Source: an uncultured Prevotellaceae bacterium (GTDB lineage: Bacteria; Bacteroidota; Bacteroidia; Bacteroidales; Bacteroidaceae). Taken from it: a stretch of DNA of 64,000 nt. Where the stretch lies: assembly GCA_902786665.1 (NCBI GenBank), contig CADADN010000004.1, positions 34,183 through 98,182 on the forward strand, in the 5' to 3' direction. The notes beneath the pieces were generated by a model. The model did not search any database. It was not told the DNA's origin and was given only the letters and a program-made list of their open reading frames with translations. Shown here piece after piece: positions 19,313-49,639 of this stretch; within the stretch, counting starts at the first letter, position 1; each line of letters begins with the position of its first letter. A program made the translations under genes and the position numbers.

Positions 19313-19326
19313 CCGTTCCCCGCAAT

Positions 19327-19372
19327 CGGCGGTTCCGCCGCCTCGTTCTCTATGCTGCAACATTGTTGCAGC
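19327..19372 (+). repeat. family A hairpin followed by family C hairpin
   Basis: Just after the protease stop: CGGCGG-TTC-CGCCG (19327-19340), then GCTGCAACATTGTTGCAGC (19354-19372). Both words recur elsewhere in the window. They occupy the gap before the capsid leader. Confidence 0.7.
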
Positions 19373-19431
19373 TCCTCAAAAAGATTATTCACAAACCACA
19401 ACCATCAACCAACACAAAAACTTTTCAAACT

Positions 19432-20724: not shown

Positions 20725-20830
20725 AACCTGACAGGAATACCGTGGCGGGCATCGGCCTCGGAATGGTGTCTACGCCCGCCACATTTCCTTATCTTCAATG
20801 CAACACAGAAACAATTAAAAACTGAATATT

Positions 20831-21385
20831 ATGCCACAAGTAGCATGTCCCACACTCCAGCACTGTCTCAAAGAGAACGACTGCTTGGAAAACTTGGCGG
20901 GCCTTGGCAACGTTGCCTATGCTTTCATCAAAAGCGACCTGTCGGCTCCGCTCACCCGGACGGGTACGAAATACTCCACTCCTGCTTTCAAGGATGGCAA
21001 GGGACTGTATAAGTTTGAACTGCAAGACCAGATGCAAGGCATTGTCGGCGAGAGCCTGAAAAAACGTCAGGGTTTCAAACAGACCTTCGAGGGTGCTTTC
21101 GAAGCCGTCAACGAGATCATCTCAAAGACCGCCCGCGCTCTCAACAATCTTGATGTCTGTTTCATCGTTCCGGATAATGGCAAATTCCAAATCATGTACG
21201 ACCCGTATCATGATGTGAAATTTGAGGATGGCGGCATCAAGACCGACACCGGCAAGGCTTCTTCCGATGATCGCCAGACTACCTTCACCGCCACATTGGA
21301 GCCAGTAATCTATCCCAACTTCTGGGTGGACGCTCCTGCCGGTGGTTGGGAGTCATTGCTTGCAGAAGACTCCAGCAGCGACTAA
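20831..21385 (+). CDS. virion structural protein (tail tube or head completion)
   Basis: 184 residues, beginning MPQVACPTLQHCLKENDCLENL, with a compact alpha/beta body and a SSSD C-terminus shared with the capsid protein. Length and position after the capsid gene would suit a tube or connector protein; the tail module proper is 24 kb away. A strong terminator follows at 21414. Confidence 0.6.
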   Translation: MPQVACPTLQHCLKENDCLENLAGLGNVAYAFIKSDLSAPLTRTGTKYSTPAFKDGKGLYKFELQDQMQGIVGESLKKRQGFKQTFEGAFEAVNEIISKTARALNNLDVCFIVPDNGKFQIMYDPYHDVKFEDGGIKTDTGKASSDDRQTTFTATLEPVIYPNFWVDAPAGGWESLLAEDSSSD

Positions 21386-33444: not shown

Positions 33445-34776
33445 CTATCCGTTCTCCGTAGGTGACGGCTTCGCCGTCGCAGCAACCTGGTATTCCTCTT
33501 GTATCGCCACAAGCAGCGGCCTGTAAATTTCCGCCTGTTCCTCGCCCATCAGTTCCACCAGCCTTTCAAATTTCTTCTCGCTGGTTTCGACACGTTTTTT
33601 GGTGGCGGTTTTGTCCTTCCTTCTTAGATATTTCAAAATGGCATCCACTTCCTGCTTTTTCGCTTTTTCGGCTTTCACCTTGGCGATATACTCCGGGCTT
33701 TCCTGCTCCATTACGGCTTTCACCCTCACCTCAAACTCCGGCGGCATCTTTTGCAGATAGGGCTTCAGCTCCTTGATGATGGCGGAAGCATCCTTCACGC
33801 CAAAACGCTTGCCGAACCGCTGCGCAAATGGCGCATCATGTTTCAGTCTGTAGCATACCGTGGCCAGTTCATTATCCACGTCATCATATATCTGCTCATA
33901 CGCTTCCGTGTTTTGCGCTGCCAGTTGCGCCACCGGCTCTATCAGTTCTGCCTTGTCGCCCCTTTCGGCCATCATCTTCGCCTGTTCTGCATAACTCGCC
34001 GCCGTGCGTCTCAATTCCGCCACCGTGGCCACGCGCTCTTTTAATCCCGGCGACAACAACCACGAAAGTTGGTCGAGGTGCAGTCGTGCCTGGCTCATTG
34101 CGGCAATGGTGCTTGGGGGTTGCGCCTGTCCCCTTTGCTGCAACATTGTTGCAGCCCCATCGCTGGCACCACCCTCGCCCTGCGCCTTGCTCTTTTCCTC
34201 TTCAGCAAACAGCCCCGGATTCATCTTCGCATCCCTTGCCGCTCTTGCCTCTCTCTCGGCCCGCATCTCCTCATTGTTCTTCTCCCTCCCCGCCGGGTTG
34301 GTGATCACCTCCAGCCCAAGCAGCCGGGCAATGGCCTGTTGTTTTTCTGTCTCGACATCTTCCTCTTGACCGGCGGCCATCATCATTTGCCATTGGTAGG
34401 CTTCCTCGCGTGTCGGTCTTCCCCTCCTCCTTTGCATTTGCTTCATCTGGGGCACATACGCAAACGCATTTCCTTCCGCATCCCTCACGACAACATTTGC
34501 AGAGATTTCTTCTTTCACGCCATCGACATAGTAAGGCAACCGATATGTTCGCCTGTCATAGTCTCCAAACCTGAGTGCCGTCTCCGCATACTCCTGCGCA
34601 CCCGGAAAGGCAGCTAATAGCCGCAGCCCTCTTTCCATCATCCTCTTATGCTCCGGCGACCACGACCCTTGCAAACCCATCAGTACCGGCATCTGTTTCC
34701 CGGCAAACTCCGAAAACTCCTCTACCCACCGCAACTGCTCGGCGACGGTCATCTCCTTATACAACTTCCTTTTCAT
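33445..34776 (-). CDS. hypothetical phage protein, 443 aa
   Basis: First gene of the leftward unit, transcribed from the divergent promoter at 34839. Mostly helical, with coiled coils (EERAEREARAARDAK-like, residues about 165-185; KAEKAKKQEVDAIL, about 370). Two hairpin families are translated inside it: a family C copy (34137-34155) and a family A copy (33464-33478), the latter giving the C-terminal KPSPTENG. Position suggests a packaging or portal-associated role; no family recognised. Confidence 0.6.
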   Translation of the reverse strand: MKRKLYKEMTVAEQLRWVEEFSEFAGKQMPVLMGLQGSWSPEHKRMMERGLRLLAAFPGAQEYAETALRFGDYDRRTYRLPYYVDGVKEEISANVVVRDAEGNAFAYVPQMKQMQRRRGRPTREEAYQWQMMMAAGQEEDVETEKQQAIARLLGLEVITNPAGREKNNEEMRAEREARAARDAKMNPGLFAEEEKSKAQGEGGASDGAATMLQQRGQAQPPSTIAAMSQARLHLDQLSWLLSPGLKERVATVAELRRTAASYAEQAKMMAERGDKAELIEPVAQLAAQNTEAYEQIYDDVDNELATVCYRLKHDAPFAQRFGKRFGVKDASAIIKELKPYLQKMPPEFEVRVKAVMEQESPEYIAKVKAEKAKKQEVDAILKYLRRKDKTATKKRVETSEKKFERLVELMGEEQAEIYRPLLVAIQEEYQVAATAKPSPTENG

Positions 34777-34805: not shown

Positions 34806-34839
34806 CAAAATTAACACCCCGACAAAAAACAGATGGTAC
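34806..34839 (-). promoter_or_regulatory. late-type promoter L1 (leftward)
   Basis: On the minus strand GTACCAT begins at 34839; 20 bases separate GTACCA from TAATTTTG (34813-34806). Faces the gene starting at 34776. One of four with identical spacing. Confidence 0.75.
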
Positions 34840-34849
34840 ATCCCAAATT

Positions 34850-34975
34850 CCCCACCCCACCCATCCTCTTGCATCCTCTATCATCCTCTCCCATCCTCCC
34901 ACCCTCCCACCTAAAATCTCCCATCCCTACCTAAAACCACCTATCCACACCTAAAACCTCCTACGCCTCTCAAAA
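34850..34975 (+). repeat. CATCCTCT and CCTACCTAAAA tandem repeats between divergent promoters
   Basis: Pyrimidine-rich 10-12-base units (CATCCTCTTG, CATCCTCTCC, then ACCTAAAACC) lie between promoters L1 and L2. No gene is visible in 34777-35098. Confidence 0.75.
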
Positions 34976-34980
34976 TCCTT

Positions 34981-35014
34981 GTACCATTCAAAACCCCGCC
35001 CCACCCTATCTTTG
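34981..35014 (+). promoter_or_regulatory. late-type promoter L2 (rightward)
   Basis: GTACCAT at 34981, 20 bases between GTACCA and TATCTTTG (35007-35014). Drives the fibre and lysis module. A family A hairpin (35050-35064) lies in its leader. Confidence 0.8.
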
Positions 35015-35098
35015 AATCACAAAAATGGAGCAATCCGTTCTCCGCAGGTGGCGGCTTTGCCGCCGCAATTCTATAATTCTAAAATTCGCAAATTCGGG

Positions 35099-36199
35099 AT
35101 GGATCACATCGCACAACCCACAGACTATCGGCTGACGCCTAACACCCTTTCCTTTGCCCTCAATATTCTGGGCGAAGCCAATCGTGTGCAGTGCAGCGTT
35201 TCAAGCGGTGCATCCATCAAGTGCTTCATTGAGGACGTGACAGGATTGGACTATAACAGCAATCATGAATACCGTGAATGGCCTGTCATAGTCGCTCCCA
35301 CATATTTCAATACCGACACCATAAAATACATATATGCGGCCATTCCGAAGACATCGGCTTCCGGAACGGCGGCGATGATCGTTTTCCCTTCAGAGCAACT
35401 TGACATCTATGGCAAGAATGCTCAAAATGAGCAAATCGGACCTACTACTCATTTCTTTATCTGGCTTCAGGGCATCATTTCCGCTGTCACCACCACCGAC
35501 GATGTTTCAACCCGGCAAATTACACAGCTGGTCAACGACGGCGTTTTGGGCACCGAACAAGCTCGTGCTGCCAAGGCCATCACCAACATCAAAGTCAATG
35601 GCTCTGATGTCCAAATCGAAGCCGGAACAGCGGAGATAACCACGCCGCAACAAATGTCCGACCTTGAAAACGACGAGAACTTCATCGAGGAGTCGGATGT
35701 CTCTGCCGGCAACAATATCCTACAACTGCGAAACAAGTCGCTTAATCTCGCTCACGGGCACGATTGGGGAAATATAGTCAATAAACCGAACTTGGTCGAG
35801 GGCATCACAGCCGGCAACGGCAAACTCTCATTCTTTCATTCCAATGGCGACACCACAGTGGCGGATTTCTCGTCTCTCATTGCAACCATCAACAGCAAGG
35901 CGAGTCAGGTTAGTGTGGATGCGTTGGTCAACCAGCGTGGAATGGTCATCGACCCTCTCGTTTGGGCTGCTACATACAACGACGATGGATTTGTATGGAC
36001 TGAGACTTTGATTGGCAACTATTGGTTTGACACTACAGCTGGAAAACTGAAAATATTTGTTGGCTTCATTCTTGACGAACCCATATTTCCTGAGGTCAAA
36101 GGTATGTTCCTTGTCTGGCATGAGAGTACCGGCGAACTGGTCATGTACTCTTGGTATGGCACCGGCAACCCTTCAACAATAACAATATTCACGCAATAA
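35099..36199 (+). CDS. tail fibre/baseplate-associated protein
   Basis: 366 residues from ATG 35099 (MDHIAQPTDYRLTPNTLSFA). N-terminal beta-rich domain, then Ser/Asn repeats and a motif LAHGHDWGNIVNKPNLVEG common in fibre shafts, followed by a C-terminal beta domain. First gene of the L2 unit, upstream of further fibre genes. Likely connects fibres to the tail. Confidence 0.65.
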   Translation: MDHIAQPTDYRLTPNTLSFALNILGEANRVQCSVSSGASIKCFIEDVTGLDYNSNHEYREWPVIVAPTYFNTDTIKYIYAAIPKTSASGTAAMIVFPSEQLDIYGKNAQNEQIGPTTHFFIWLQGIISAVTTTDDVSTRQITQLVNDGVLGTEQARAAKAITNIKVNGSDVQIEAGTAEITTPQQMSDLENDENFIEESDVSAGNNILQLRNKSLNLAHGHDWGNIVNKPNLVEGITAGNGKLSFFHSNGDTTVADFSSLIATINSKASQVSVDALVNQRGMVIDPLVWAATYNDDGFVWTETLIGNYWFDTTAGKLKIFVGFILDEPIFPEVKGMFLVWHESTGELVMYSWYGTGNPSTITIFTQ

Positions 36200-36202
36200 G
36201 AC

Positions 36203-36361
36203 ATGCCACAGACAACACCTATAGATGTATTCTCGCAAGTCAGCGACGGCACCCTGTCCTTTGCAAGCGGCAGCGGTGTGATGGTCGTTGAGATGTCCCT
36301 CGCGGATTACAATGCGCTAACAACAAAGGATTCCAACACCCTATATGTGATAACGTCATGA
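36203..36361 (+). CDS. small fibre-operon protein, 52 aa
   Basis: Begins MPQTTPIDVFSQVSDGTLSF at ATG 36203; stop overlaps the next start (ATGA at 36358). Beta-rich, with a C-terminal DSNTLYVITS resembling the ends of fibre-associated domains. Function unknown. Confidence 0.5.
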   Translation: MPQTTPIDVFSQVSDGTLSFASGSGVMVVEMSLADYNALTTKDSNTLYVITS

Positions 36362-37311
36362 TATACGCGGCAAAGAACAAAGTGATTGATGCATATTTCG
36401 GCGACAAGAAAGTGCTGAAGATGATGCTTGGAGGTGTGGAGGTGTATGCCTCCTCGCTGCCCTCGTATCAGGTGGACTGCACGTTCGATGGGGTGACTTC
36501 CGACGCGCCAAGTTCAGTGGAGGTGGGCGGACCACTCTTTGTCACTTTGTCGGGAACAAGCGGGAAGCAAGTAATGCCGTGGACGGTGGTGGTGATGATG
36601 GGGGAAACGGATGTCACATCATCCGCCTACGACCCATCAGACAACACTATTTCCATAGCAAGCGTTACTGATGACGTTGCAATCACGGCATCAGGAGTTA
36701 CGATGAGTTCCGCTTACAAGCCTGTCGAGTATATCCAAAATCTCTCCCCAGCGGCAGGCAAGCGTTTTGTTACGGACTACTACCCGACCGACACAACCGA
36801 GGTGATTGCGGATGTCAACGTGATGGCTCTGACCAATTATAGCGGCGTGTTTGGCACGATGACATCCTCCACACCGTATTTTGCATTGATGGCGAGATAT
36901 ACTGGTAGCTATGGACGTGGATGGTGGGGCAACAAAGCCCTTGAGACAAGCGCATTTGGAACATATCTCGCAATCTCGACAAGACAAACCGTCACCATGG
37001 GCAAGGGGTCTTTGTCCTATCTGCCCAACGGCGGGGATGCTTACCGCACACTCACCTTTGACTCAACGGTGACCACCCCGTGGACATCACCCAATGTCTT
37101 GCAGATTGGCGGTTACATCTCTGGTGGCACTACCTTCAGAGGCATCCAGTTGAGGATATACGGATTGCAAATCAAGGAGGGCAATACCATCGTGAGGAAT
37201 TATGTGCCTTGCCAACGCATATCAGATAACCACGTTGGACTTTACGACACAATTAACAATGCGTTTTTAGGGCAATACGACGGAAATTCAGATTGGACTA
37301 TACCTACATAA
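36358..37311 (+). CDS. tail fibre/receptor-binding protein with lectin-like domain
   Basis: 317 residues. A bacterial-repeat module occupies about 35-110 (SVEVGGPLFVTLSG, then VVVMMGETDVTSSAYDPSDN and ITASG). The C-terminal 190 residues look like a LamG/concanavalin-type domain ending in IVRNYVPCQRISDNHVGLYD, frequent in gut-phage adhesins. Likely binds surface sugars. Coupled to its upstream neighbour. Confidence 0.7.
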   Translation: MIYAAKNKVIDAYFGDKKVLKMMLGGVEVYASSLPSYQVDCTFDGVTSDAPSSVEVGGPLFVTLSGTSGKQVMPWTVVVMMGETDVTSSAYDPSDNTISIASVTDDVAITASGVTMSSAYKPVEYIQNLSPAAGKRFVTDYYPTDTTEVIADVNVMALTNYSGVFGTMTSSTPYFALMARYTGSYGRGWWGNKALETSAFGTYLAISTRQTVTMGKGSLSYLPNGGDAYRTLTFDSTVTTPWTSPNVLQIGGYISGGTTFRGIQLRIYGLQIKEGNTIVRNYVPCQRISDNHVGLYDTINNAFLGQYDGNSDWTIPT

Positions 37312-37314
37312 GAT

Positions 37315-37884
37315 ATGAGACAAATATTGAAAATACCAAGGGGAAATCCCTTCAAGATGAACCTTTGTCCACAGAGGATAGCACCAGCGCAGCAAGATGC
37401 ATCGTTCCGCGACATTACCGATTTGTCGGTGCGGTTGACGCGCCACAATTGGGACGGCATTGATGCGGAGTTTGACTACACCGAGGATGGCGACATCATC
37501 ATACAAGTGCCGTCCGTCTTGAAATGCGTCACCTACGGAGTGGAATTGACAGGGACGTATAATGGTAAGTCATGGAGATGGGCGGACTGCTCAGTCTTCC
37601 GCGTTGTTGAGTGCAACTGCCGGAGTAACGTGCAATTTGAGGAGTCCTTCGACGTAGAGACTTATTACATCTACGATGACATCATACCATCGTACAAGGC
37701 TTCCGAGGAAGCACTTGTCCTAAACACCCATGCCCATGCGTGGTTTGAGGGCGGCACACTGCATCTCGTAGCCACGGAGGGAACTGACATAGAAAATATC
37801 AAAGACACTTTAATCATAAGAGAATATGGCAGAGAAAATATCGAGAATCATTGTGGAAGACCCTCACGGGAATACTGTAGATAG
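37315..37884 (+). CDS. fibre-associated protein, 189 aa
   Basis: Starts MRQILKIPRGNPFKMNLCPQ; beta-rich with several Cys. Overlaps the next gene by 59 bases. Similar short proteins accompany fibre genes in Bacteroidales phages, perhaps as baseplate adaptors. No family assigned. Confidence 0.55.
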   Translation: MRQILKIPRGNPFKMNLCPQRIAPAQQDASFRDITDLSVRLTRHNWDGIDAEFDYTEDGDIIIQVPSVLKCVTYGVELTGTYNGKSWRWADCSVFRVVECNCRSNVQFEESFDVETYYIYDDIIPSYKASEEALVLNTHAHAWFEGGTLHLVATEGTDIENIKDTLIIREYGRENIENHCGRPSREYCR

Positions 37885-40729
37885 GGAAATATCCACGTCT
37901 GAGCGTGAGATTGTGATGGCGGAGCATAATGCCGACGCAACCGCTCACGAACCAATAAGGAATGCCTTGAACCAAACCATAGTGCAATCGGCTCAAGACT
38001 TGACGGCGGCATTGTCTAACCATAACGTCGCGTCCGACGCACACTCTGACATCAGGGATTTGGCGAACTCCAAGGTTGCCGATGTGCAAGTGGGAGAAAC
38101 AAGCGTGGTTGAGAATGGTGTTGCCCATATTGACCCTGAAGATTTTGGCAAGGTGGACGATGTTCAAGTGGATGGGCAGTCTGTGGTGACAGGAAAGGTG
38201 GCCAATATTGACTCTTCCAATTTTGGGAAGGTCGATGATGTCCAAGTGGACGGACAAAGCGTGGTTTCTAACAAGGTAGCCGACTTCCACATTCCGACAT
38301 CAGTATCCGAATTGTCTGACTCTGACGATTATGCCACCAAGGAATATGTCGCAGACAACACCCCTACGACAGTCGCGGAGTTGTCTGATGCCGATGACTA
38401 CGCTACCAAAGTAGAAGCGCAAGCAATGGTGGATGAAGCGAAGGTCATTGGAGCAACTGTGGACTACCAAGAGGACGATGGCTCACCAGATGCTACAGTA
38501 AAACTCAACAACGGGAGTTTGGATTTCACCCTCAAGAATATGAAGATGAAATTCTCCGACCTTGAGCCGGAAGAGGTTGAGCAACTGAGAGGCCCGCAGG
38601 GCGTGCCTGGGCAAAGCATCATCGAGGGAGAGGGAGACCTCCCTCTTGAAAACTATGTCAGCGAAGCGGATAACAAGGCCGTCACACCAAAGGCTGTATA
38701 TGACGAACTTATGATTGATAGGACTTGGAGTGAGTCTGTAATCAGTTCCCAAAACAGCGGGGCATCCGACAGAAGATACATCTCCAGTGACGTGTGGAAG
38801 AGTGAATCCACCACTACCCAAGGTGCGATATTCCCCGTGACGGTTGGAAAGACATATAAATTAATTGCCGCATCGGGCAATATATACTACGCTTTCGTCA
38901 CGGCAAAAAGTACTGCCAACAACGACCCTGTCTCATACGCAGGAGGAGCAACTGGTTTGTCCTCTTTGAGCAATGGGGCATCAGTCTCCGTTGTAGCCCC
39001 AAGCGATGCCGTGTTCCTTTATACTTCGCGGAAGTCAAGCAGTACGGTTGTATTGCCAACAGTCAAGGAAATCGAAACCACGAAAGAACACATAGCAAGT
39101 ATAGATGCTTCGGTCGAAGAATTGGAAGATAGTGTCGAAGAATTGGTAGGCGAAAACCTTCCGACAAGGGTGGAAACGCTGGAGGAAAGCATCCAAGGAA
39201 TTGACGACTCCATAGCAGACGCAAAGATATACCAAGATGTGGTTCTCTCTTATGTTAGTGGGAATCTATACGCGCAATGGATTAGCGGGGATGAGTGGAA
39301 GAGCGGTGGCTTGAGTAACAATTATGGGGCAGAGTATTATGTTGAGCCTGGCAAGACCTACAAGATAACCACCAACGCGGGCTATTCAAGTAACTATGCT
39401 TTTATCAAAGAAGAGAGGGTTGTAACGATTGAAGGTGAAGACAAAGTGGCTTTCTGCGAAGGCGAGGAACTGCACAGCATCACCGCAGGGGCTACGGTGA
39501 TGGTCACCGCGCCTGCAGATGCGTATTACCTCTATGTGTTTCACCGCAAAAAGTCTTCGGGGGCAGACCCCGTCTATTACATCAAGTCTGTCAGCCATGT
39601 GATATACAACAAGGAGAAAATAGCAGAACAAGATGTCACGATGACCAATGCCAACGAGATATTGCCTTTGCTTGGCTTGACGGATTCGGAGGACATCACA
39701 AGCGAGTTGGAATGGGCGGGCAACGGATATGTAAGCATTGACCAAATCGTGGCGTCAAGCAGCATCACGCATTACTCCACACCAATACATCTTGCTGCTG
39801 GCGAGTGCATCATCGTCCAAACAAGGGTCAACTCTACATTAATGGTGTTGACGGAGGACACGGGGCAGAACTCAGAAGCAAAGTACAACGTCCTCGTCAA
39901 AGGCATGACTGCTCCAGATATAGGCAACAACACATACGCCTATATCGCACCAAGAGACATGAACGTTGTTATCTCCACATTTAAATCTTCAGATTGCTTC
40001 GTCACCATCAGAAGGAAGCAAACTGACATGGAGGCGAATTTACCCGAAAAATTCTACCTCCCACCACGGACATACAACATCCTTGCGGCCTATGACAACC
40101 TTGTAGCTATCGGTGACTCGTTGACCAAGGGCGTGGTATATACGATTAATGGTTCAAGAGTGGCGAGCAGACCTTACCCCAAAGTCTTGCAGAAGACGTG
40201 CGGGTTCGACAACCTTTCCATATGGGCGGAAGGTGGCAAGAACGCCGAATACATTTGGGCGACATTCTCAAACCAGTTCGCCATACCTCAAACGGGAAAG
40301 ACGTTGTGCATCGTCTTCCTTGGCACTAACGGAGGATTCACCGACACTCTTGACACTGAAGCACCCGTGGGTGATGAGGATAATTGGGATATGACAAAAC
40401 GAGTCCCTTGCTACGCGAAGATAGTCAAGACATTCGTAGATTTTGGGGCGAACATCCTCTTGATAAAGCCGTGGACAACGGGAACACAAAACGTGACCTT
40501 GGCTGACACCTTCGCCACAATAGACGGAGTAGCAGAAAGGTATGGATGTGCGGTCATCAAGGCAGGTGACATAAAGTCGAACAACTTTAAGTACCATTGC
40601 TACCCGACCCACAACGGCGTGAACCTCCTCCACTTCAACGAACTTGGCTACGCACACTTCGCATCTGCCATCATCAACGCAGTAAACGAATTACCTGATG
40701 ACAACTTGAAATTCCTCGTACCAAGATGA
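37826..40729 (+). CDS. large tail fibre with C-terminal SGNH esterase domain
   Basis: 967 residues. The N-terminal 130 residues carry coiled-coil fibre repeats (HNADATAHEPI, LSNHNVASDAH) and three copies of KVDDVQVDGQSVV; a collagen-like GPQGVPGQS lies near 255. The C-terminal domain (about 750-967) shows SGNH hydrolase blocks: IGDSLTKG (S765), WAEGGKNAEY, FLGTNGG (N835) and LLHFNELGY (H936). The usual Asp three residues before the His is Asn, which may weaken it. Probably de-acetylates host glycans during adsorption. Confidence 0.78.
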   Translation: MAEKISRIIVEDPHGNTVDREISTSEREIVMAEHNADATAHEPIRNALNQTIVQSAQDLTAALSNHNVASDAHSDIRDLANSKVADVQVGETSVVENGVAHIDPEDFGKVDDVQVDGQSVVTGKVANIDSSNFGKVDDVQVDGQSVVSNKVADFHIPTSVSELSDSDDYATKEYVADNTPTTVAELSDADDYATKVEAQAMVDEAKVIGATVDYQEDDGSPDATVKLNNGSLDFTLKNMKMKFSDLEPEEVEQLRGPQGVPGQSIIEGEGDLPLENYVSEADNKAVTPKAVYDELMIDRTWSESVISSQNSGASDRRYISSDVWKSESTTTQGAIFPVTVGKTYKLIAASGNIYYAFVTAKSTANNDPVSYAGGATGLSSLSNGASVSVVAPSDAVFLYTSRKSSSTVVLPTVKEIETTKEHIASIDASVEELEDSVEELVGENLPTRVETLEESIQGIDDSIADAKIYQDVVLSYVSGNLYAQWISGDEWKSGGLSNNYGAEYYVEPGKTYKITTNAGYSSNYAFIKEERVVTIEGEDKVAFCEGEELHSITAGATVMVTAPADAYYLYVFHRKKSSGADPVYYIKSVSHVIYNKEKIAEQDVTMTNANEILPLLGLTDSEDITSELEWAGNGYVSIDQIVASSSITHYSTPIHLAAGECIIVQTRVNSTLMVLTEDTGQNSEAKYNVLVKGMTAPDIGNNTYAYIAPRDMNVVISTFKSSDCFVTIRRKQTDMEANLPEKFYLPPRTYNILAAYDNLVAIGDSLTKGVVYTINGSRVASRPYPKVLQKTCGFDNLSIWAEGGKNAEYIWATFSNQFAIPQTGKTLCIVFLGTNGGFTDTLDTEAPVGDEDNWDMTKRVPCYAKIVKTFVDFGANILLIKPWTTGTQNVTLADTFATIDGVAERYGCAVIKAGDIKSNNFKYHCYPTHNGVNLLHFNELGYAHFASAIINAVNELPDDNLKFLVPR

Positions 40730-41928
40730 AAAAGTTAACACCCGAACAAGCCATCGCCCGCTTGCAACCGAGCGGCATGGCAAAAACAAAGGGAAAGCAA
40801 CCAACCCTTGAACTATTAGACATAGTCGCGGATGCCGTATATATCGTGGGGAATGAGGATGGCAACATCCTCACCCCCGCGTATGACGGCATTCAACCAG
40901 TCATCGGCACTTGGGAGGAGAAAGGCGGTGAAATGCCGCCAGCATTGCAAGATTGGTTGCAAGAATACGCATCCGAGATTGAGTGGTTTAACCGCGTGGG
41001 CGAGTCGTTAGTACCACCAGAAGGTGCTGGCTTAATCCCTGCTCACGCTCCAAAAGCACCACGCCAAAACATCCCGAAACTCCTCGACACCAAATGGGGT
41101 CAGAAATCCCCCTACAACGACAAGATTGTTTTTGATGGCAAGAAATGCCCGACAGGCTGCAACACCACCACCGCCGCACAAATCATCAAGCGTTGGGGAG
41201 ATTTAGGCTGTCACATCGGATGCAAACCCACCGACGCGTACAAGACTGCAAGCAATGGTTACGAGGTGAAAGCACTCCCATCGTTAGTGACCTTCGACTA
41301 TGCAAACCTTGTCAAGTCGCCGAAGACCGACAAGCAAAAGACGGCTGTCGCGCAACTGATGGAGTATATCGCCTATAGTTTTCATTCAGACTTTAAAGTT
41401 AATGGAACGGGGGCGAACCCCAAGCAAGTCGCGACATACCTCAAGGAGAACCTGCGGATGGGTAGTTTCATTTCCTACATTACCGCCGCGAAACTTGGCT
41501 TGTCCTCCTTTGAGAATTACATCTACAACGAATTGCTCCAAGGCAGACCCGTGATGGTCGCCGGATGGACTGCAAGCGGCAGCGGTCATACATTTGCCAT
41601 CGACGGCTATGATGCCACCAACGACCTCTATCACGTCAACTGGGGATGGGGTGGAAGTTACGATGGCTGGTTTGCGATGTCGGCTCTCAACCCCAAGACC
41701 TCCATCGCCTACAACTCTAAAAAAGTTGCTATCATCGGCATCCAACCATACAAACTTGGCGACATCAATGACGACGGGGAGGTGGACATAGTTGACGTGA
41801 TGCAAGTCGTACAGGACGCGCAACAAGGCAAATACTCCGACAAGGCCGACATCAACAACGACGGTCAAGTGACTGTCACCGATGCGATGCTCATCCTTGA
41901 CAAAGTGTTAGGAAAACGAGAACTATAA
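40726..41928 (+). CDS. C10 (streptopain-like) cysteine protease with dockerin
   Basis: 400 residues, overlapping the fibre stop. An N-terminal Spi-type propeptide-like region (about 25-95, ending MPPALQDWLQEYASEIEW) precedes the C10 catalytic domain with CPTGCNTTTAAQI (C145) and SGSGHTFAIDGYD (H288), followed by VNWGWGG. From residue 345 a type I dockerin pair appears: DINDDGEVDIVD and DINNDGQVTVTD. There is no signal peptide. Phage proteases of this kind with dockerins are unusual; it could act on the host surface, as part of the fibre, or after lysis. Confidence 0.85.
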   Translation: MKKLTPEQAIARLQPSGMAKTKGKQPTLELLDIVADAVYIVGNEDGNILTPAYDGIQPVIGTWEEKGGEMPPALQDWLQEYASEIEWFNRVGESLVPPEGAGLIPAHAPKAPRQNIPKLLDTKWGQKSPYNDKIVFDGKKCPTGCNTTTAAQIIKRWGDLGCHIGCKPTDAYKTASNGYEVKALPSLVTFDYANLVKSPKTDKQKTAVAQLMEYIAYSFHSDFKVNGTGANPKQVATYLKENLRMGSFISYITAAKLGLSSFENYIYNELLQGRPVMVAGWTASGSGHTFAIDGYDATNDLYHVNWGWGGSYDGWFAMSALNPKTSIAYNSKKVAIIGIQPYKLGDINDDGEVDIVDVMQVVQDAQQGKYSDKADINNDGQVTVTDAMLILDKVLGKREL

Positions 41929-41948
41929 ACCACAACAACAAGAAGAAA

Positions 41949-42455
41949 ATGACAGAAATCATTAGCACGGCTAGGCAAATGTTCCTCATGGATTCCATCA
42001 TTGCGGTAATCGTATTTGTCGCTATGATGATTGACCTCGCCGCCGGACTCTACAAAGCGAAGGTGCGTGGAGATGCAAGACGTTCGGAGGCATTGAAACG
42101 CACGGGTTACAAATTCTTAATCTACGAGGGTGGCATCATGATTGCCTCCATGGTGGACTTGATGATTCACATGGGCAAGATGTATCTTATTTTTGGGTGG
42201 GATATGGCGTGGGGTGTCCCATTCGTCACTATTATGATGGGCATCTTTTGGTGCGTTGTTGAGTTCCTTTCCGTTCGCGAAAAAGCGGATGAAAAAATTC
42301 ACTCCGACATCAGCAAGGCGGAGAAACTCGCCGCTCAAATCCTCAAGATAGTCGAAACCATCAAGAAAGGCGAATCACCCGACCTCGACAAGGTCAAGGA
42401 AATCTTGGAGGGTGATGCAAAGAATCCAGAACCATTAGATATGAAAGACATGTAG
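41949..42455 (+). CDS. holin, Bacteroidetes type
   Basis: 168 residues with three to four hydrophobic segments (about 10-35, 48-66, 70-92) and a charged helical C-terminus (KADEKIHSDISKAEKLAAQI). The DLAAGLYKAKVRGDARRSEAL loop is typical of phage holins of this group. Forms membrane lesions that release the endolysin. Located directly before the amidase. Confidence 0.8.
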   Translation: MTEIISTARQMFLMDSIIAVIVFVAMMIDLAAGLYKAKVRGDARRSEALKRTGYKFLIYEGGIMIASMVDLMIHMGKMYLIFGWDMAWGVPFVTIMMGIFWCVVEFLSVREKADEKIHSDISKAEKLAAQILKIVETIKKGESPDLDKVKEILEGDAKNPEPLDMKDM

Positions 42456-42457
42456 TT

Positions 42458-43240
42458 ATGGCATACAAGAAAGGCTCAAAAGGAGAGGTGGTGAAGCAGA
42501 TTCAAGCCGCCCTCCACCTCACGCCCGACGGAATTTTCGGGCCACTTACTGAACAAGCAGTAAAAGATTTTCAAAGAAAAAACGCCCTTGTCGTTGACGG
42601 CATCGTAGGAGATAAGACATTGTCTTTGCTCTTGCCCAAACCACAAGAAGAAACGTTTATTACCAAGGGTTACATCAACACCCACATTACCCGGCTTCCC
42701 AACCGACCAATCAAGTACATTGCCATCCACTATACTGCCGGCTCAACGTCGCGCAAGGGTACTGCGATGACCACGCGCAATGTATTTCTCAAGCGCAAAG
42801 CGTCTGCCGATTTTGTTGTGGATGACGAGACCATCGTGCAAATCAACCCTGACTTGCGGAACTACTACTGTTGGTCGGTGGGCGACCCATTGAACAAAAC
42901 CACAGGTGGAGGAAGACTCTACGGAAAAGCCACCAACCGCAACACCATTTCCATCGAGATTTGCTCCAACCTCAAGAAAGGCGGCAACGCCGCCTACCCC
43001 AATCACGATGGGTGGTATTTCACGGATGCAGCCCTCGACAACGCACGGAGGCTTGTGCGCTTCTTGATGGCAAAGTACAATGTCCCCAAATCCAACGTGG
43101 TTCGCCATTATGATGTAAGCGGCAAGATGTGTCCCGGCATTTTTGGCTGGAACGACGCGCCAACCTACACGGACGAGGGCAAGCAAACAGGCAAAAGGAA
43201 CAGCAGTCAGCAATGGCTTAATTTCTATAATAGTATTTGA
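42458..43240 (+). CDS. N-acetylmuramoyl-L-alanine amidase (endolysin) with PG-binding domain
   Basis: 260 residues. An N-terminal peptidoglycan-binding domain (about 5-62; TPDGIFGPLTEQAVKDFQ, DGIVGDKTLSLLL) is joined to an amidase_2 domain (about 85-235) with zinc ligand motifs IHYTAG, SIEIC and RHYDVSGKMCPG. Cleaves the amide between muramic acid and the peptide stem. It starts two bases after the holin stop. Confidence 0.88.
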   Translation: MAYKKGSKGEVVKQIQAALHLTPDGIFGPLTEQAVKDFQRKNALVVDGIVGDKTLSLLLPKPQEETFITKGYINTHITRLPNRPIKYIAIHYTAGSTSRKGTAMTTRNVFLKRKASADFVVDDETIVQINPDLRNYYCWSVGDPLNKTTGGGRLYGKATNRNTISIEICSNLKKGGNAAYPNHDGWYFTDAALDNARRLVRFLMAKYNVPKSNVVRHYDVSGKMCPGIFGWNDAPTYTDEGKQTGKRNSSQQWLNFYNSI

Positions 43241-43241
43241 T

Positions 43242-43715
43242 ATGGACAGAGAAGGAGAAAACCGCATAGTATGGGCATTTTTTATAAAATTCATCGCCGT
43301 CATTGCCGTCTCCTTGCTCTTTGGATGCAAGACAAAGAAGGTCATAGAGACAGTGGTCGAACACGTCCATGACACCGTGCAAGTCCATCATTCCGACACC
43401 GTGCGTGAGGTGAAAGTCTCCCATCACACCGACACCGTCAAGCAGATAGAGACCCACACCTACACCCTCAACAACGCCGGTGACACCGTCAAGGAAATAC
43501 ATCATTTTGTCGAGGTCAATAAAATGATAGTCGTGGACTCCACATACCGATACAAAGCCATCGTGGACTCTCTCCAAAAAGCCCTCATAGAAGAAAAGTC
43601 CAAAAACAAGACGGTCACAAAATACAAGCCGGTCATCCGTTGGTGGGAGTATGTTTTTCTCCTGTCCATCGTGGGCATCGCCATCTTTTTCGTCCTCAAA
43701 AAGAAAAAAGGATAG
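43242..43715 (+). CDS. candidate unimolecular spanin
   Basis: 157 residues from ATG 43242. N-terminal lipobox-like FGC (IAVIAVSLLFGC, lipidated Cys about residue 29) is followed by a long coiled-coil/beta periplasmic part with many His/Thr/Val repeats (HDTVQVHHSDTV) and a C-terminal hydrophobic helix (YVFLLSIVGIAIFFVL). Outer-membrane lipoprotein plus inner-membrane anchor is the unimolecular spanin architecture, fusing inner and outer membranes at lysis. Position after holin and amidase fits. No homology claimed. Confidence 0.7.
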   Translation: MDREGENRIVWAFFIKFIAVIAVSLLFGCKTKKVIETVVEHVHDTVQVHHSDTVREVKVSHHTDTVKQIETHTYTLNNAGDTVKEIHHFVEVNKMIVVDSTYRYKAIVDSLQKALIEEKSKNKTVTKYKPVIRWWEYVFLLSIVGIAIFFVLKKKKG

Positions 43716-43758
43716 AATAACTTTTCATAATGTAATAAGACATAGTTGATGTTGAACA

Positions 43759-43784
43759 CCGCCCTGTCCGTGAGGATAGGGCGG
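43759..43784 (+). terminator. GC-rich hairpin between convergent genes
   Basis: CCGCCCT (43759) pairs with AGGGCGG (43778), with inner TCC-GTGA-GGA. No T run follows, so termination in either direction is plausible but not assured. A family B hairpin (43812-43830, GTCGCTGT-ATT-ACAGCGAC) lies next to it. Confidence 0.6.
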
Positions 43785-43811
43785 AATCGTTGGCGGCAGT
43801 CTGTCTTGCTT

Positions 43812-43830
43812 GTCGCTGTATTACAGCGAC
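43812..43830 (+). repeat. family B hairpin, stem GTCGCTGT
   Basis: GTCGCTGT-ATT-ACAGCGAC in the convergent gap between the spanin and the leftward gene. The copy at 52806-52824 is identical. Confidence 0.8.
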
Positions 43831-43880
43831 ACCACTGCAACCGCCGCCTGTCATCACAAACCACAAGGTCAAAACCATTC

Positions 43881-44438
43881 CTACCACACGCCGAGCACTT
43901 GCAACTCCTTCACCAGGTCAATATCCATCTCAAAGCCGTTCACTACATGCGCCTGAATCTGTTCGCCGTAAAAGTCTAACAGATACCGCTCAATCCTTGT
44001 TGCCAAGTGATTCACTTCGCTACGGATGCTCGGCCTATGCGACCTTCCGGCGGCACGGTTCCACATGCTGATATATCGTGTGGAGTAATTCACATTCTTT
44101 CCGCGCTCCACATCTTTATGCTTCACACCTTTGCCGACGCCCAACTCCGCAAAGCGCATATAATTAAGGTATTTATATTCAATGGATATGTTGCCGATGT
44201 CTTCAGCAGACAAAATCCTACCGCGAAAAGACTTTGCGCCACGGCCTGTGGAATACCAACTTTTGTGTCTCTTCCTATACTCATTTATCTTCCTGTAACC
44301 GGGATAGACTTCTGTCGGCCATATCTGTTGCGTAGCGAGGTTGATCTCTATCTGTTCAAGCGTGTCTTTGTGGAAACGTGTGATGGTCTTCCTCAAACTT
44401 GCTGTCGGGCGGGCCAATGCCCCGATGTTCTTTGCCAT
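43881..44438 (-). CDS. putative tail/neck accessory protein, 185 aa
   Basis: Leftward single gene opposite the tape measure and driven from promoter L3. Basic, helical N-terminal half (MAKNIGALARPTASLRKTIT) and Arg/Tyr-rich middle. Phage minor-tail or neck proteins can have such composition; no family recognised. Confidence 0.55.
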   Translation of the reverse strand: MAKNIGALARPTASLRKTITRFHKDTLEQIEINLATQQIWPTEVYPGYRKINEYRKRHKSWYSTGRGAKSFRGRILSAEDIGNISIEYKYLNYMRFAELGVGKGVKHKDVERGKNVNYSTRYISMWNRAAGRSHRPSIRSEVNHLATRIERYLLDFYGEQIQAHVVNGFEMDIDLVKELQVLGVW

Positions 44439-44468
44439 ATTTCTTTGCTTTAACAGTCAAATATTAAC

Positions 44469-44502
44469 CAAAAATAACACTCATCAAAATAAAATATGGT
44501 AC
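44469..44502 (-). promoter_or_regulatory. late-type promoter L3 (leftward)
   Basis: On the minus strand GTACCAT starts at 44502; 20 bases separate GTACCA from TATTTTTG (44476-44469). Faces the gene at 44438. Confidence 0.75.
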
Positions 44503-44516
44503 AACAGCCGTCCCAT

Positions 44517-44572
44517 CCCAATCCTCTCCCATCCTCTTGCATCCTCTTACGTCCTCTCCCATCCTATTAAAA
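44517..44572 (+). repeat. CATCCTCT tandem repeats between divergent promoters
   Basis: Five 11-12-base units (CCTCTCCCATC, CCTCTTGCATC, CCTCTTACGTC) between promoters L3 and L4, similar to the array at 34862. Spaced like the other divergent region. Confidence 0.75.
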
Positions 44573-44575
44573 ACC

Positions 44576-44609
44576 GTACCATATCGCCAATGCCTTTTGT
44601 CTAACTTTA
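44576..44609 (+). promoter_or_regulatory. late-type promoter L4 (rightward)
   Basis: GTACCAT at 44576 and TAACTTTA (44602-44609) after exactly 20 bases. The -7 box is one base from TAnnTTTG. Drives the tail module. Confidence 0.7.
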
Positions 44610-44631: not shown

Positions 44632-47600
44632 ATGGCAAAAAATAGTAGCTCGCAAGCCGTCATCAACGTGACAACCAACGCACAGAAGGCGCAGAACGAC
44701 ATAGAGAAAATGGACGCTCTCTTGAAAAGACTCCGAAAAACCAAACAACTGATGGAAAAAGAGAACCTTCAGGAGTCTGCCGCATACAAGAAACTGAAAC
44801 AGGACATCAAGAACGCGACACAAGCGCAGAAGGAAAACATCTCTGCCAGCGAGTGCATGAAACGCACACTCGACCAACTCAACAATATTACGCTCAAAAA
44901 CCTGAAGCAGGAATACCGCAAACTGCTCAAAGAACTGGGAAATTTCTCCGGCGCGGAAGCAAAACAGGCGGCGGCGTGGCGGCAAAACCTCGAAAAAATC
45001 AAGGCAAAAATCAACGAACTTGAAGGCACTACCGGCAAGTTTGGGAAAACACATTCCTCCGTATGGCATACCGCTGTGCGAAACATCACCGCGTATGTGG
45101 GCGTCTTTGGCGCATTCAATTTTGCTAAGTCCAAAATCACCGAGGTCATCAAAGCCAACAACGAACTCTCCGACCAGATGGCTGACATCCGCAAAGTCTC
45201 CGGCCTTGCAATGGAAGACATCAGGCAACTCACCACCAACCTTTCCAAAATCGACACGCGCACCACGCTCTCTGAACTCAATCGCATCGCTTACGCGGGC
45301 GCGAAACTGGGCTTTGGCAACCAAGGCATAGAAGGTCTTGAACAGTTCACCCGCGCAGCCAACCAAGTCAACGTCGCACTGAAGGAGGATCTTGGGGAGG
45401 AAGCTCTCACGGCTCTCTCTAAAATCACGGAGAACATGGGACTTATCAAGAAAATGGGTGTCGAACAAGCCATGCTGGCCACCGGCTCTGCCATGTTCAA
45501 ACTGGCTTCCACATCTACTGCCGCCGCCGGACCTATCGTGGAGGTGACAAAGAGAGTTGTGCCTATGGCCAAATCTATAGGATTGGCGACATCCGATGTC
45601 CTTGCACTTGCTTCTACTGCTGACTCATTGCAACTCCAACTCGAGGTGACCGGCACGGCGTTGTCTAAATTCTTTGCCGCTATGCAAGTCAATCATAATC
45701 TGATTGAGCAAACGCTTGACATTCCAGCCGGAACCATTGAGTCTTGGATCAAACAGGGAAGAGCAATGGATGCCATCTTGCTCTTGTTTGACAAAATGAA
45801 GGAAAAAGGAAACATGAGCCAACTGCAACCCATCGTTAAATTGATGGGTGGAGAGGGTTCCAGATTGATAACAGTTCTTCTATCCATGTCGCAAGAAGTG
45901 GACAGACTACGAACACACCTCGACATCTCAAGAGAGGCTTTTAAGGATGCAACGGCTGTCACCGAAGAATACAACATCCAGCAATCCACTGCTCAAGCAC
46001 TGCTCGAAAGGGCTAATAACATGTGGAGAAATGCTTTCGTCAACCCGGAGGCTTCAGAATCCGTAAAAGAACTTACAAGGTCGTGGTATGATTTCACTAA
46101 AGCGATGCTACAATCCCCCGAAGCAATGATGAGCATTAAAACGGGCATTGATTTTATCATCGGCTCTCTAAAATTACTCATACAACTAATTCCCGCCTTT
46201 ATCGGGTTTGGCCTTGTCAAAATGATAATGGGAATTGGGTCGGCGTTGGGTCTTGCTACAATAGCCACGGAAGGATTCAAAAAAGCATGGCTCAGTATGA
46301 GTACAGCCATGAAGTCAAACTGGATTGGACTTGCAGCAGCCGCTTTGTTTGAATTAATATACCAACTCAAAGCGGCATCGGTTGCTGCTAGCGAGGCTGA
46401 AGTACAAGAAAGAAAAGCCACACAGGCTCTGCAAGAAGCCATACAAAAAGCCGAACAAGAAATAAAAACTCTCGACCAACTCAAAAAACAAATTGACAAC
46501 ACCAACATTTCACAAAGGGAGAGAAACGAACTTTTGTCAAAAGTACGCACCGACTACGACATCTACTTGGCTTACTTGGGCGTAGAAATCAAATCCGTAA
46601 AAGACTTGGAAAACCATTATAAAGATTTGATTAAAGTCATCAAGCAAAGATATGCATACGAAGAGAAGCAACAGTACAAGCGCACTAAAATGGGCAGCGA
46701 AGGTGGCACCACAACGAACAGAAGAATGGCCGGAGCTGACCTTGTCAAACAATACAAAAATCAACTCGGAAAAGATCTTGATCTTGAATCTATTCAGAAC
46801 TTCATTGTTGATTCATATAACAAAGGTAATGTTGACATGGCGAGAGTCAAGGGCTATGCCGGAGTACCACTCAGGTCAAGTAGGAGAAACGACGTAACGG
46901 GGCTCCTCATGGACTTCACAAATGCGGTAATCAACGAACTCAAGGAAGACAAAGCCATCGACGCAGCATTCGCAGCGGAAATCGGAGACTACGACCCGGA
47001 CAAAATGATGATGACGCAAGTTCGCGGCGACTTTGTCTATAAACCCGACAAAGCCGCTGCTGCTGCTGCCCGTGCTGCCGAAGCCGAAGCCAGAAGAAAC
47101 GCGGGAAGAAACGCGGCGCAAGCACGGCGCGAACGTCTGCAACAACTCCGCAACGAACTCAAAGACGCAGAACAGGAGGCTCAAGCCATCATTGACAAAA
47201 TCAACGAGTTCTATTACCTCCAAGAGGAAACCATCGAGCAGCAAGTGGCCGATGGAAAACTCACTCGCGCAGAAGCCGACCAATACTTGCTCAACCTTAA
47301 ACTTTCCAAAAACCAGTCGCTGGCCAACGCAAGAAAAACCATCGCCGGTAAAATGAAAAAAGATGATTGGAACAAGTATATCAAAGATGAACTGCCACGC
47401 ATAATGATAGACCAAGGCCAATGGAGTAATGAATTGGCTGGGGAAATCATCAAAACTGACCTTACCTACATCCACAACCTTCTCGCAAGATTCAATGGCT
47501 CTGATGCTGTCCTTGGCTTGCGCTCAACGGCCTCGTTTGACAAACTGATGAAAAGCGCGGCGGTCAACGAGCGTGACAACGCCAAAATACGCGCTCAAAT

Positions 47601-49545
47601 CGCAGATGAAGTGGAGAAAATATTGATGGAATACAATTTCGTTGAGCAAGCGCAAAAGTCCTTCCATAACAACCTCATCGGCCTGGGTATCATGAAGGAG
47701 ACTTATGAGCAATATGTCAAACGGATTCAAGAGGAGACAAAGGCTCTTCAAGGAAAAAACGGCAATACGCCCAATGTAGATTGGGATATGGGAAATCTTC
47801 AAGAGGTCGCTGTGTTTGGCAGCAAGCACAAGACTCCAGAGGCGCAACTCTTGCAACAATTCCTCGCTCAAGGGTCAAAACCCTATCTCGTCAACCCGCA
47901 AGACAACCACAGTCTTTACGTCTGGCTCAAAAACCTGATGAGCGACTATGACTATGACGAGGAGGAGGACATCATGTGGCATACCGAAAGTTGGGTGGAT
48001 AAAGGATTCCCGCAACTCAAGGAGTGGGTGCAAGACATCGGACAATACCTCCCGAAAATACAAAAGTTCTATTTCTCTCTCATCACCTGGGAGGATGAAT
48101 ACTACGATGCCAAGAAGAAAGCCTATGACCGAAGCAAACGTCTGATGGAGGAACAATGGAGCCGCAGCGGCAACAAACAACGATATGATGAACTGGAATG
48201 GGCATTGAACGAACGTGGCCGACAGCGTGCCATGACAGGCATCAACAAGGGCGACACCTTTGGAAGACTCGGCGGTTTCAACACCTTGGAGGAAGACCCC
48301 GAACTAGCTCTCTACCGGGCTAAGATGGAGGCGGCGCAACTCTATCTCCAACAGCTTAAAGAATGTCACGCGGATGAAAAACTTATCCGCGAGGCGCAAC
48401 ATGCGGAAGACGAAGCCGAACTGGTCTTCCAAGAAAAAATCATGGCGGCCATCAACGACCGCATCACAAAACTCCAGCAATGGACGCAGCCGGTCATTCA
48501 AATGGGTGAACAGGTGGGACAAGCTCTCTATGATCAGTGGCATAATGGGGAGTCAATGGGTGAGAAATGGCAAGACATTCTCAAAGACCTCGGTATGGCT
48601 TGGGGAAAGACCACCATACAAATCATCGAGGAACTGATGATGCAGCGAGTCAAACAAAACATCCTCAACAAAGCCATCGAAGCTGACCAAGCAGCCCATA
48701 AGGCCACAATGGTCACAATAGAGGAAACGGGTGGCGCCGCGCAAATCGCCGCCAATCAGGCCGCCAACACCGTCCTTGAAGCACAAGAACAAGCGCATAA
48801 CTCTGCCATACTGTCAGAAGATCTGGCGGCTGTCGAAGCGGAAACCCCAGTCAACATCGCTCGCGGTGCCGGAAAGACCATCGGCAATCTTGGTTGGTGG
48901 GGCATCCCTCTTGTGGCGGTCATCGTCACTCTTCTAACCACCCTCTTGAATGCCGCCCTCGGAAAGAGCAAGAAAAGCAGCAAGACCAATAGCAGTAGCG
49001 ACACCGCTCAAAAACTCAAACTTGTTTCCGGCATGCTCACCTACGACGAAGGCAATGTCTCGTCCTATGTCGGTACCGATGGCCACGTCTATAATGCCCG
49101 TCGTGTTGCCATACCACAGGGCACCGCCCTTGTCACATCGCCCATCGCCACCACGGTCAATGGCCAGCCATCCCTCGTCGCGGAGCGTGGCCCAGAAATC
49201 GTGATTGGCCGGCGCACCACCCGCCACATCATGCTCAACGAACCAGCCTTGCTCCAACACCTCGCCGCACTCGAACACCGCCGCGCCACTCGTTACCGCC
49301 CCTACGACGATGGCAACCTGTCTGCCTATGCTGCAACAATGTTGCAACCCCAGCAACCCGCCACCCAGCAGTCATCCACCGACGAACAGACGCGCCAGAC
49401 CCTCGAAGCCCTTACCGCCGCCGTCATCGCTCTACAAGCCCGCCTCGCACAGCCCATCGAGGCCAAAATCAACAAATACGGCACCGGCGGTCTCATCGAC
49501 GAAGTGCAGTCCGGCTTGAAGTTCATGAACAAATACACCGGCTAA
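44632..49545 (+). CDS. phage tail tape measure protein
   Basis: 1,637 residues. Coiled-coil N-terminus (about 20-140) followed by a TP901-type tape-measure core (ADIRKVSGLAMEDIRQLTTN, MQVNHNLIEQTLDIP region), several more coiled coils and one membrane helix near residue 1,425 (WWGIPLVAVIVTLLTTLLNA). It sets tail length and is ejected into the host membrane. A family C hairpin (49330-49347) is read in frame near the C-terminus as YAATMLQPQQ. Predicted tail length would be about 240 nm if 0.15 nm per residue applies. Confidence 0.9.
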   Translation: MAKNSSSQAVINVTTNAQKAQNDIEKMDALLKRLRKTKQLMEKENLQESAAYKKLKQDIKNATQAQKENISASECMKRTLDQLNNITLKNLKQEYRKLLKELGNFSGAEAKQAAAWRQNLEKIKAKINELEGTTGKFGKTHSSVWHTAVRNITAYVGVFGAFNFAKSKITEVIKANNELSDQMADIRKVSGLAMEDIRQLTTNLSKIDTRTTLSELNRIAYAGAKLGFGNQGIEGLEQFTRAANQVNVALKEDLGEEALTALSKITENMGLIKKMGVEQAMLATGSAMFKLASTSTAAAGPIVEVTKRVVPMAKSIGLATSDVLALASTADSLQLQLEVTGTALSKFFAAMQVNHNLIEQTLDIPAGTIESWIKQGRAMDAILLLFDKMKEKGNMSQLQPIVKLMGGEGSRLITVLLSMSQEVDRLRTHLDISREAFKDATAVTEEYNIQQSTAQALLERANNMWRNAFVNPEASESVKELTRSWYDFTKAMLQSPEAMMSIKTGIDFIIGSLKLLIQLIPAFIGFGLVKMIMGIGSALGLATIATEGFKKAWLSMSTAMKSNWIGLAAAALFELIYQLKAASVAASEAEVQERKATQALQEAIQKAEQEIKTLDQLKKQIDNTNISQRERNELLSKVRTDYDIYLAYLGVEIKSVKDLENHYKDLIKVIKQRYAYEEKQQYKRTKMGSEGGTTTNRRMAGADLVKQYKNQLGKDLDLESIQNFIVDSYNKGNVDMARVKGYAGVPLRSSRRNDVTGLLMDFTNAVINELKEDKAIDAAFAAEIGDYDPDKMMMTQVRGDFVYKPDKAAAAAARAAEAEARRNAGRNAAQARRERLQQLRNELKDAEQEAQAIIDKINEFYYLQEETIEQQVADGKLTRAEADQYLLNLKLSKNQSLANARKTIAGKMKKDDWNKYIKDELPRIMIDQGQWSNELAGEIIKTDLTYIHNLLARFNGSDAVLGLRSTASFDKLMKSAAVNERDNAKIRAQIADEVEKILMEYNFVEQAQKSFHNNLIGLGIMKETYEQYVKRIQEETKALQGKNGNTPNVDWDMGNLQEVAVFGSKHKTPEAQLLQQFLAQGSKPYLVNPQDNHSLYVWLKNLMSDYDYDEEEDIMWHTESWVDKGFPQLKEWVQDIGQYLPKIQKFYFSLITWEDEYYDAKKKAYDRSKRLMEEQWSRSGNKQRYDELEWALNERGRQRAMTGINKGDTFGRLGGFNTLEEDPELALYRAKMEAAQLYLQQLKECHADEKLIREAQHAEDEAELVFQEKIMAAINDRITKLQQWTQPVIQMGEQVGQALYDQWHNGESMGEKWQDILKDLGMAWGKTTIQIIEELMMQRVKQNILNKAIEADQAAHKATMVTIEETGGAAQIAANQAANTVLEAQEQAHNSAILSEDLAAVEAETPVNIARGAGKTIGNLGWWGIPLVAVIVTLLTTLLNAALGKSKKSSKTNSSSDTAQKLKLVSGMLTYDEGNVSSYVGTDGHVYNARRVAIPQGTALVTSPIATTVNGQPSLVAERGPEIVIGRRTTRHIMLNEPALLQHLAALEHRRATRYRPYDDGNLSAYAATMLQPQQPATQQSSTDEQTRQTLEALTAAVIALQARLAQPIEAKINKYGTGGLIDEVQSGLKFMNKYTG

Positions 49546-49568: not shown

Positions 49569-49639
49569 CACCCCTTCCGCTTGCCGCTGTACCAATGCGA
49601 CCATTTCCATTAACTATTTTTGCCAAAAACAAAGTCACT

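Follow-up and report, generated by a model that had tools for sequence, protein, structure and literature searches.

What drives transcription of the structural genes of a phage-like element in a Bacteroidota host, when the promoters in front of them keep a -7 box of the host type but carry a foreign box in the place of the host -33 element? The question is raised by a stretch of 64,000 nucleotides (the window) from an uncultured Prevotellaceae bacterium (assembly GCA_902786665.1, contig CADADN010000004.1, positions 34,183 to 98,182). The contig (C4, also labelled L041 for site F and for early-gene coordinates) is 98,182 bp long and has identical ends of 99 bp, so that it is most likely circular, with a length of 98,083 bp. 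Among its genes are those for a ParA-type ATPase, a Rep3-type initiator and a DNA polymerase sliding-clamp-like protein together with a tape measure, an endolysin and a weakly matched terminase, and from this gene content we regard the element as a phage-plasmid. With a probability of about 75%, we consider the GTACCA boxes in its promoters to be the upstream half of a phage-specific class of late promoters, at which host polymerase with sigma-ABfr would recognize the -7 element, while a phage activator would replace the contact at -33.

The sequence-only reading of the window had placed four GTACCAT sites in two divergent gaps, each beginning 26 bases ahead of the -7 box, and all four are located where it put them (promoters A to D, Table 1). 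Its list was not complete, as promoter E, in which a mechanical open reading frame (ORF; 49595-51430) begins, and site F outside the window had been missed. Moreover, not one but three further copies of GTACCAT lie inside genes (29648 on the forward strand, 40591 on the forward strand and 50587-50593 on the reverse strand). GTACCAT-N(15-25)-TAnnTTTG is found three times in the window (0.04 expected; none of 100 shuffles reached three), with promoter D, ending in TAACTTTA, falling outside this strict pattern. Counted over the entire circle, GTACCA is present 29 times and TAnnTTT[G/A] 108 times. They form six pairs, all with a spacer of exactly 20 bases and none with spacers of 10–19 or 21–30, compared to a mean of 0.02 and a maximum of one exact-20 pair in 200 Markov resamples of the element. 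GTACCAT by itself is not enriched in the window (7 observed, 4.26 expected), and the whole genome shows no overall excess of GTACCAT-N(19-21)-TAnnTTT (five places versus six for the reversed pattern); four of these five places are promoters A to D.

Related phages were reached through alignments of the 443-aa protein encoded behind promoter A and of a 240-aa protein described below. With the 443-aa family as query, 16 loci were found in viral contigs. Thirteen contigs were taken nearly whole, 12 from this search and one (G520) from the search with the 240-aa protein, and promoters played no part in the choice; L120 (the contig of G506), L129 (a fragment of 4 kb) and L130 and L132 (close duplicates of G514 and G515) were left out. 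Together with the element, G506, two contigs of RUG446 and G235:C52, these make up a set of 18 records with 832 TAnnTTTG sites. GT[ACG]CC starts 62 times at -26, 20 times at -25 and 6 times at -24, compared to 0–6 occurrences at each of the remaining offsets between -55 and -12. G506 and G235 nearly duplicate each other; with G235 left out, the three counts are 61, 19 and 6. The box has a single direction: GTCC[CG] was counted 101 times forward and never reversed, GT[ACG]CC 86 times forward and twice reversed. The logo of 116 aligned promoters reads approximately wtTGT(C/a)C(C/G)A, followed by 18–20 bases and TAHHTTTG. The -7 box retains its host-type form, with G at only 2% and 1% in the two H positions of these promoters, which were selected for TAnnTTTG.

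The letters of the box vary by phage while box and spacing are conserved, which bears out the check on relatives that had been proposed for the window. GTACCA is the form in the element, GTACCG and GTACTT belong to RUG446, GTCCCA predominates in G509, G512, G513, G515, G516 and G519, and GTCCGT, GTCCGC or GTCAG in G510, G511, G514 and G517; mixed letters are found in G508, G518 and G520. RUG446 and G235 possess the same genes in another order and without the divergent gaps, and the orthologues keep the box in place. The 596-aa gene is preceded by GTACCA in the window, GTACCG in RUG446 and GTCCCA in G235, each with N20. The 443-aa gene has GTACCA-N20 in the window and GTACTT-N20 and GTCCTA-N19 in the comparison with RUG446 and G235, and the 366-aa family GTACCA-N20 and GTCCCA-N19. 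In twelve other related prophage records, only 3 boxes were detected at 269 TAnnTTTG sites. The divergent pair as a whole, with GTACCA, had no match in a scan of viral contigs. Terminase and tape measure have few close relatives; among terminase relatives whose host has a name, the nearest come from "uncultured Prevotellaceae bacterium RUG446", in line with a Prevotella-like host.

Which genes carry the box was counted by family with a permissive pattern (either GTNC or GTCA with a spacer of 18–20, from 200 bases upstream to 70 bases into the gene). A box was found upstream of 13 out of 15 members of the 443-aa family (window included), 10 out of 14 of the 596-aa family, 8 out of 14 of a protease-like family, 8 out of 15 of the 366-aa family, 6 out of 11 of the 185-aa family and 4 out of 10 tape measures. 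By the same pattern, no box precedes genes for rep (0/8), parA (0/8), the clamp (0/8), RHH-like proteins (0/9) or DnaC-like proteins (0/7); the cluster of the 240-aa family has none in 16, and genes for helix-turn-helix (HTH) proteins have two in 17. A TTG or TTTG at the host distance was found in no member of the six box-bearing families named above, compared to 8 out of 17 HTH genes. Position, direction and gene-family counts thus strongly support a phage-specific promoter class ahead of structural units, as had been claimed from the window. No GTACCA promoter is present in the probable head module of the element, although the protease-like family, to which its S49-peptidase match (just below the Pfam cut-off) corresponds, has the box in 8 of 14 cases. 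The gene behind site F encodes 98 aa. It adjoins the terminase gene in G511, G515, G516 and G517 and lies near it in G508, while in the element it adjoins rep, and in G520 it is near rep. In the element this gene has the box, but of the seven members of its family, a box directly upstream was found in one.

Table 1. Location of promoters, genes and related boxes. Positions refer to the window unless another contig is named; N20, spacer of 20 bases.
Feature	Position	Strand	Remark
Promoter A	34806..34839	-	GTACCA-N20-TAATTTTG; upstream of the 443-aa gene and leftward genes including terminase large subunit
Promoter B	34981..35014	+	GTACCA-N20-TATCTTTG; upstream of the 366-aa gene
Promoter C	44469..44502	-	GTACCA-N20-TATTTTTG; upstream of the 185-aa gene
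Promoter D	44576..44609	+	GTACCA-N20-TAACTTTA; upstream of the tape-measure gene
Promoter E	49589..49622	+	GTACCA-N20-TATTTTTG; behind the tape-measure gene, upstream of the 596-aa gene
Site F	C4:12264 (L041)	+	GTACCA-N20-TATATTTG; behind the plasmid rep gene, outside the window
Terminase large subunit	28001..30010	-	Weak family match (PHROG_2, E 0.00084); homologues found
443-aa gene	33445..34776	-	Behind promoter A; no PHROG match
366-aa gene	35099..36199	+	Behind promoter B
185-aa gene	43881..44438	-	Behind promoter C
Tail tape-measure protein	44632..49545	+	Behind promoter D; PHROG_25337, E 1e-33
596-aa gene	49640..51430	+	Behind promoter E; "portal" guessed from position, no family match
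Candidate reader, 240-aa protein	16053..16775	+	Unannotated; directly upstream of head genes
Probable head module	16824..21385	+	200-aa protein, S49-peptidase-matching gene, capsid-position gene, 184-aa protein
GTC[CT]TTT at -27 in distant prophages	L098 8912, 15148; L045 9284, 16371; L044 15520; L043 5330; L201 9385

The best-surviving alternative, though an unlikely one, is that the box is the operator of a phage repressor which silences the late genes while the element is maintained as a plasmid. A circular phage-plasmid carrying a Cro/CI-type HTH protein, as this one does, would suit such a switch, and a conserved box near -35 might just as well serve to block transcription. However, the box is unidirectional and tied to the -7 element within two bases, whereas an operator needs neither a direction nor so exact a spacing. 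In addition, the lack of a host-type -33 TTG or TTTG in the six late families makes these promoters look weak if unaided, and the HTH family shows practically no covariation with the box letters (r 0.02, in a test of low power).

A phage-encoded alternative sigma factor reading both elements would account for the fixed spacing, but is considerably less probable than a repressor. Against it speak the host consensus retained at -7 and the profile search, which covered sigma region 4 and which a very divergent sigma factor may have escaped: none of the 27 Sigma70_r4 matches in the genome lies on the element, and nine related phage records gave no match over the cut-off (weak sub-threshold matches in four). 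The sequence-only reading had named a phage activator or a sigma-like factor; the second half of this proposal is disfavoured by these results, while the activator, together with late firing, is retained as what we infer. With regard to known activators, a search of 10 records yielded no Mor-family protein above the cut-off, G511 having a single sub-threshold match. MotA and AsiA are not among the 25 listed of the 34 Pfam families matched by 85 ORFs of the element, a comparison in which no search was aimed at them.

Still less probable is a host activator or host alternative sigma factor whose regulon is borrowed by the phages. The host genome does contain many sigma-like genes, but such promoters are nearly absent from it: in the 5.7-Mb genome, GTACC-N21-TAnnTTTG is present at six places (reversed control four), five of which are on the phage-plasmid contig, and GTCCC-N21-TAnnTTTG at none (reversed control two). 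The variation of the box letters between phages likewise speaks against a host reader. That a promoter fragment was merely copied within the phage is hardly credible, since, although the four sites share seven letters and similar repeats lie in both divergent gaps, spacers and flanking sequences differ from site to site, and orthologues in relatives still have the box, though spelled differently and next to different upstream neighbours, the letters changing at constant spacing and direction. The only GTACC-N21-TAnnTTTG place off the element, G000:C155:11279-11312 (GTACCA-N20-TAAGTTTG), was inspected briefly.

Between both divergent promoter pairs, arrays of TCCTCTnnCA with a period of 10 bp are located (34862-34980 and 44522-44568). 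They were considered as activator sites and rejected, as this array also turns up on numerous other contigs of the host genome (62 overlapping matches when up to 3 mismatches are allowed, versus 12 in the reversed control) and is therefore not specific to these promoters. At three host places inspected, it lies between genes of differing orientation.

The -7 element is of the host-promoter type described in part of PMC6847099, which makes the host holoenzyme the likely enzyme. An activator standing in for sigma region 4 would need just such a box, directional and at a near-fixed distance, where the -33 element would otherwise be; MotA is comparable, as outlined in PMC2988021. Under this explanation, host RNA polymerase with ordinary sigma-ABfr would read TAHHTTTG, and a phage-encoded activator would bind the six-base box (GTACCA; GTCCCA or GTCCGT in relatives) at approximately -38 to -33. 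Once bound, it would substitute for the usual contact of sigma region 4 with the -33 element, and the structural (late) genes would thereby be switched on. We infer that the box is read by a phage protein; this protein presumably activates rather than represses, and the promoters presumably fire late. The earlier statement that GTACCA replaces the host TTTG holds insofar as GTNCC occupies that position and TTG or TTTG is found in no member of the six late families. The replacement is looser than stated, because the -33 motif is far less evident than the -7 element in promoters of Flavobacterium johnsoniae, at least in the portion of PMC6847099 that treats them.

Phage boxes replacing a host upstream element are already known as a kind, and the present box is conserved and phage-specific as far as it was searched. 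The middle promoters of T4 depend on MotA with AsiA (sigma appropriation), and the MotA box has its centre at -30, at a distance of 12 ± 1 bp to the -10 element, according to PMC2988021. As described there, these promoters are similar in that a short, AT-flanked phage box takes the -35 place and the host -10 is kept; here, GTNCC starts at -26, -25 or -24 and TAHHTTTG is kept. In contrast to T4, the box lies at approximately -38 to -33, consists of other letters and is separated from the -7 box by 18–20 bp, the genes are structural and the polymerase is that of Bacteroidota. In the late promoters of Mu, the site of C (Mor/C family) lies upstream of the -35 site, and a single phage activator serves several late units together with host polymerase, as described in PMC4461284. 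The second feature would be shared, with the activator inferred in our case, whereas no Mor-family protein passed the cut-off here. Host sigma-ABfr promoters (-33/-7, TTTG/TAnnTTTG; PMC6847099, in part) have the same -7 element and an upstream element at similar distance, but TTTG in the place of GTNCC, and the pattern with GTNCC is nearly absent from the host genome.

A suspected reader of the box, and only suspected, is the unannotated 240-aa protein. Its family is the most widespread non-structural one, being present in 12 out of 16 box-bearing phages and in 10 out of 14 records by profile; members of the rep and parA families were found in 8 of these 16 phages, the element included. In nine of the 12 phages, the 240-aa gene directly precedes the gene of the 200-aa head-module protein, while it is located elsewhere in G509, G513 and G519. 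In the latter three (L141, L185 and L148, respectively), the family shares an open frame with another domain, for which the element has an early gene of its own (L041 14775-15143). When a 10-row alignment of the 240-aa family was used for a scan, 19 loci were obtained. In each of eight further contigs with the 240-aa gene, outside the main set, GTCC lies at -26 ahead of a gene, in six of them in the strict form GTCC[CG]. Six of these contigs were new in the 10-row scan and two (L113 and L116) came from the search with the 240-aa protein, L116 having been inspected earlier.

Several observations weigh against an activator of this kind or against the candidate. In the stretch searched, no box was found for many late genes (capsid-position genes 0/12, terminase genes 0/14); these may be located inside operons. 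In each of two other late-type families, a single member has a host-type -33 TTG or TTTG. The candidate was not found in the box-bearing phages G512, G515, G516 and G517, which also lack rep and parA and are possibly incomplete records, although G515 comprises 93 kb. Weak relatives of it are present in prophages without the GTNCC box. No recognisable DNA-binding domain was found in the 240-aa protein, which has no Pfam or PHROG match, gave PDB matches at chance level only (as did other members of the family) and had no match in 50,697 phage records. Covariation with the box letters among 37 families, where the box list of the element held five true sites and one chance site, failed to single out a reader. 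By correlation, the 240-aa family ranks seventh (r 0.32), behind six families with higher r; by permutation p, it ranks third (0.02, uncorrected for 37 tests), behind two. The neighbouring 184-aa and 200-aa families show r values of 0.47 and 0.44 and smaller p than the candidate.

A profile including a distant member in G507 revealed weak relatives of the candidate in other prophages (E 4.5e-8 to 0.015, in a small set). Among the 269 sites of the other prophages, GTC[CT]TTT was found at -27 in six (G129, G281, G377 and G464), versus 0–1 at other offsets, and once in G507. In G377, a host-like promoter precedes the weak relative, and the GTC[CT]TTT box belongs to the late-type gene that comes next; the arrangement is the same in G281, but there GTCTTTT is also located at -28 before the weak relative itself. 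GCCCTTGA is present at -27 before late-type genes in three prophages, with one site each (L085 3975, L086 15449 and L091 13120). These boxes and the weak relatives are leads only. Across all viral contigs, the pattern TTGTCCCA-N20-TAYCTTTGC matched 23 stretches, which were not used, as there was no control scan.

It is possible, although we put this forward tentatively and would not expect it to hold in full, that many Bacteroidota phages share one late system. An activator superfamily (with N-terminal IYL-R/K-x-P and often encoded by the gene before the head module) would then read clade-specific -33 boxes (GTCCCA, GTACCA and GTCCGT, distantly GTC[CT]TTT and perhaps GCCCTTGA), with box and protein co-evolving, as a Bacteroidota counterpart of the sigma appropriation of T4. 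Among the papers listed in searches on late promoters of Bacteroidota phages, titles and the openings of abstracts, on which this judgement mainly relies, describe no such promoter class (PMC8375218, in part). If the explanation is correct, it would be possible to locate late genes from sequence in a group of phages and phage-plasmids of gut and rumen, and the candidate activator would be directly testable. Bacteroidota genetics would gain phage-inducible promoters, which are expected to be silent in the uninfected host.

Besides the genes described, the window encodes an early protein that combines a Tad2-like domain (Thoeris anti-defence) and a crAss001_48-like domain (10305-10838). The names RHH-like, DnaC-like, portal and capsid used here were assigned from sequence or position without a family match. 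Family matches were obtained for an RNA ligase (3723-4598), a serine resolvase/invertase (5418-6389), Stealth CR2 (8153-9043) and a PAPS reductase (31494-32648).

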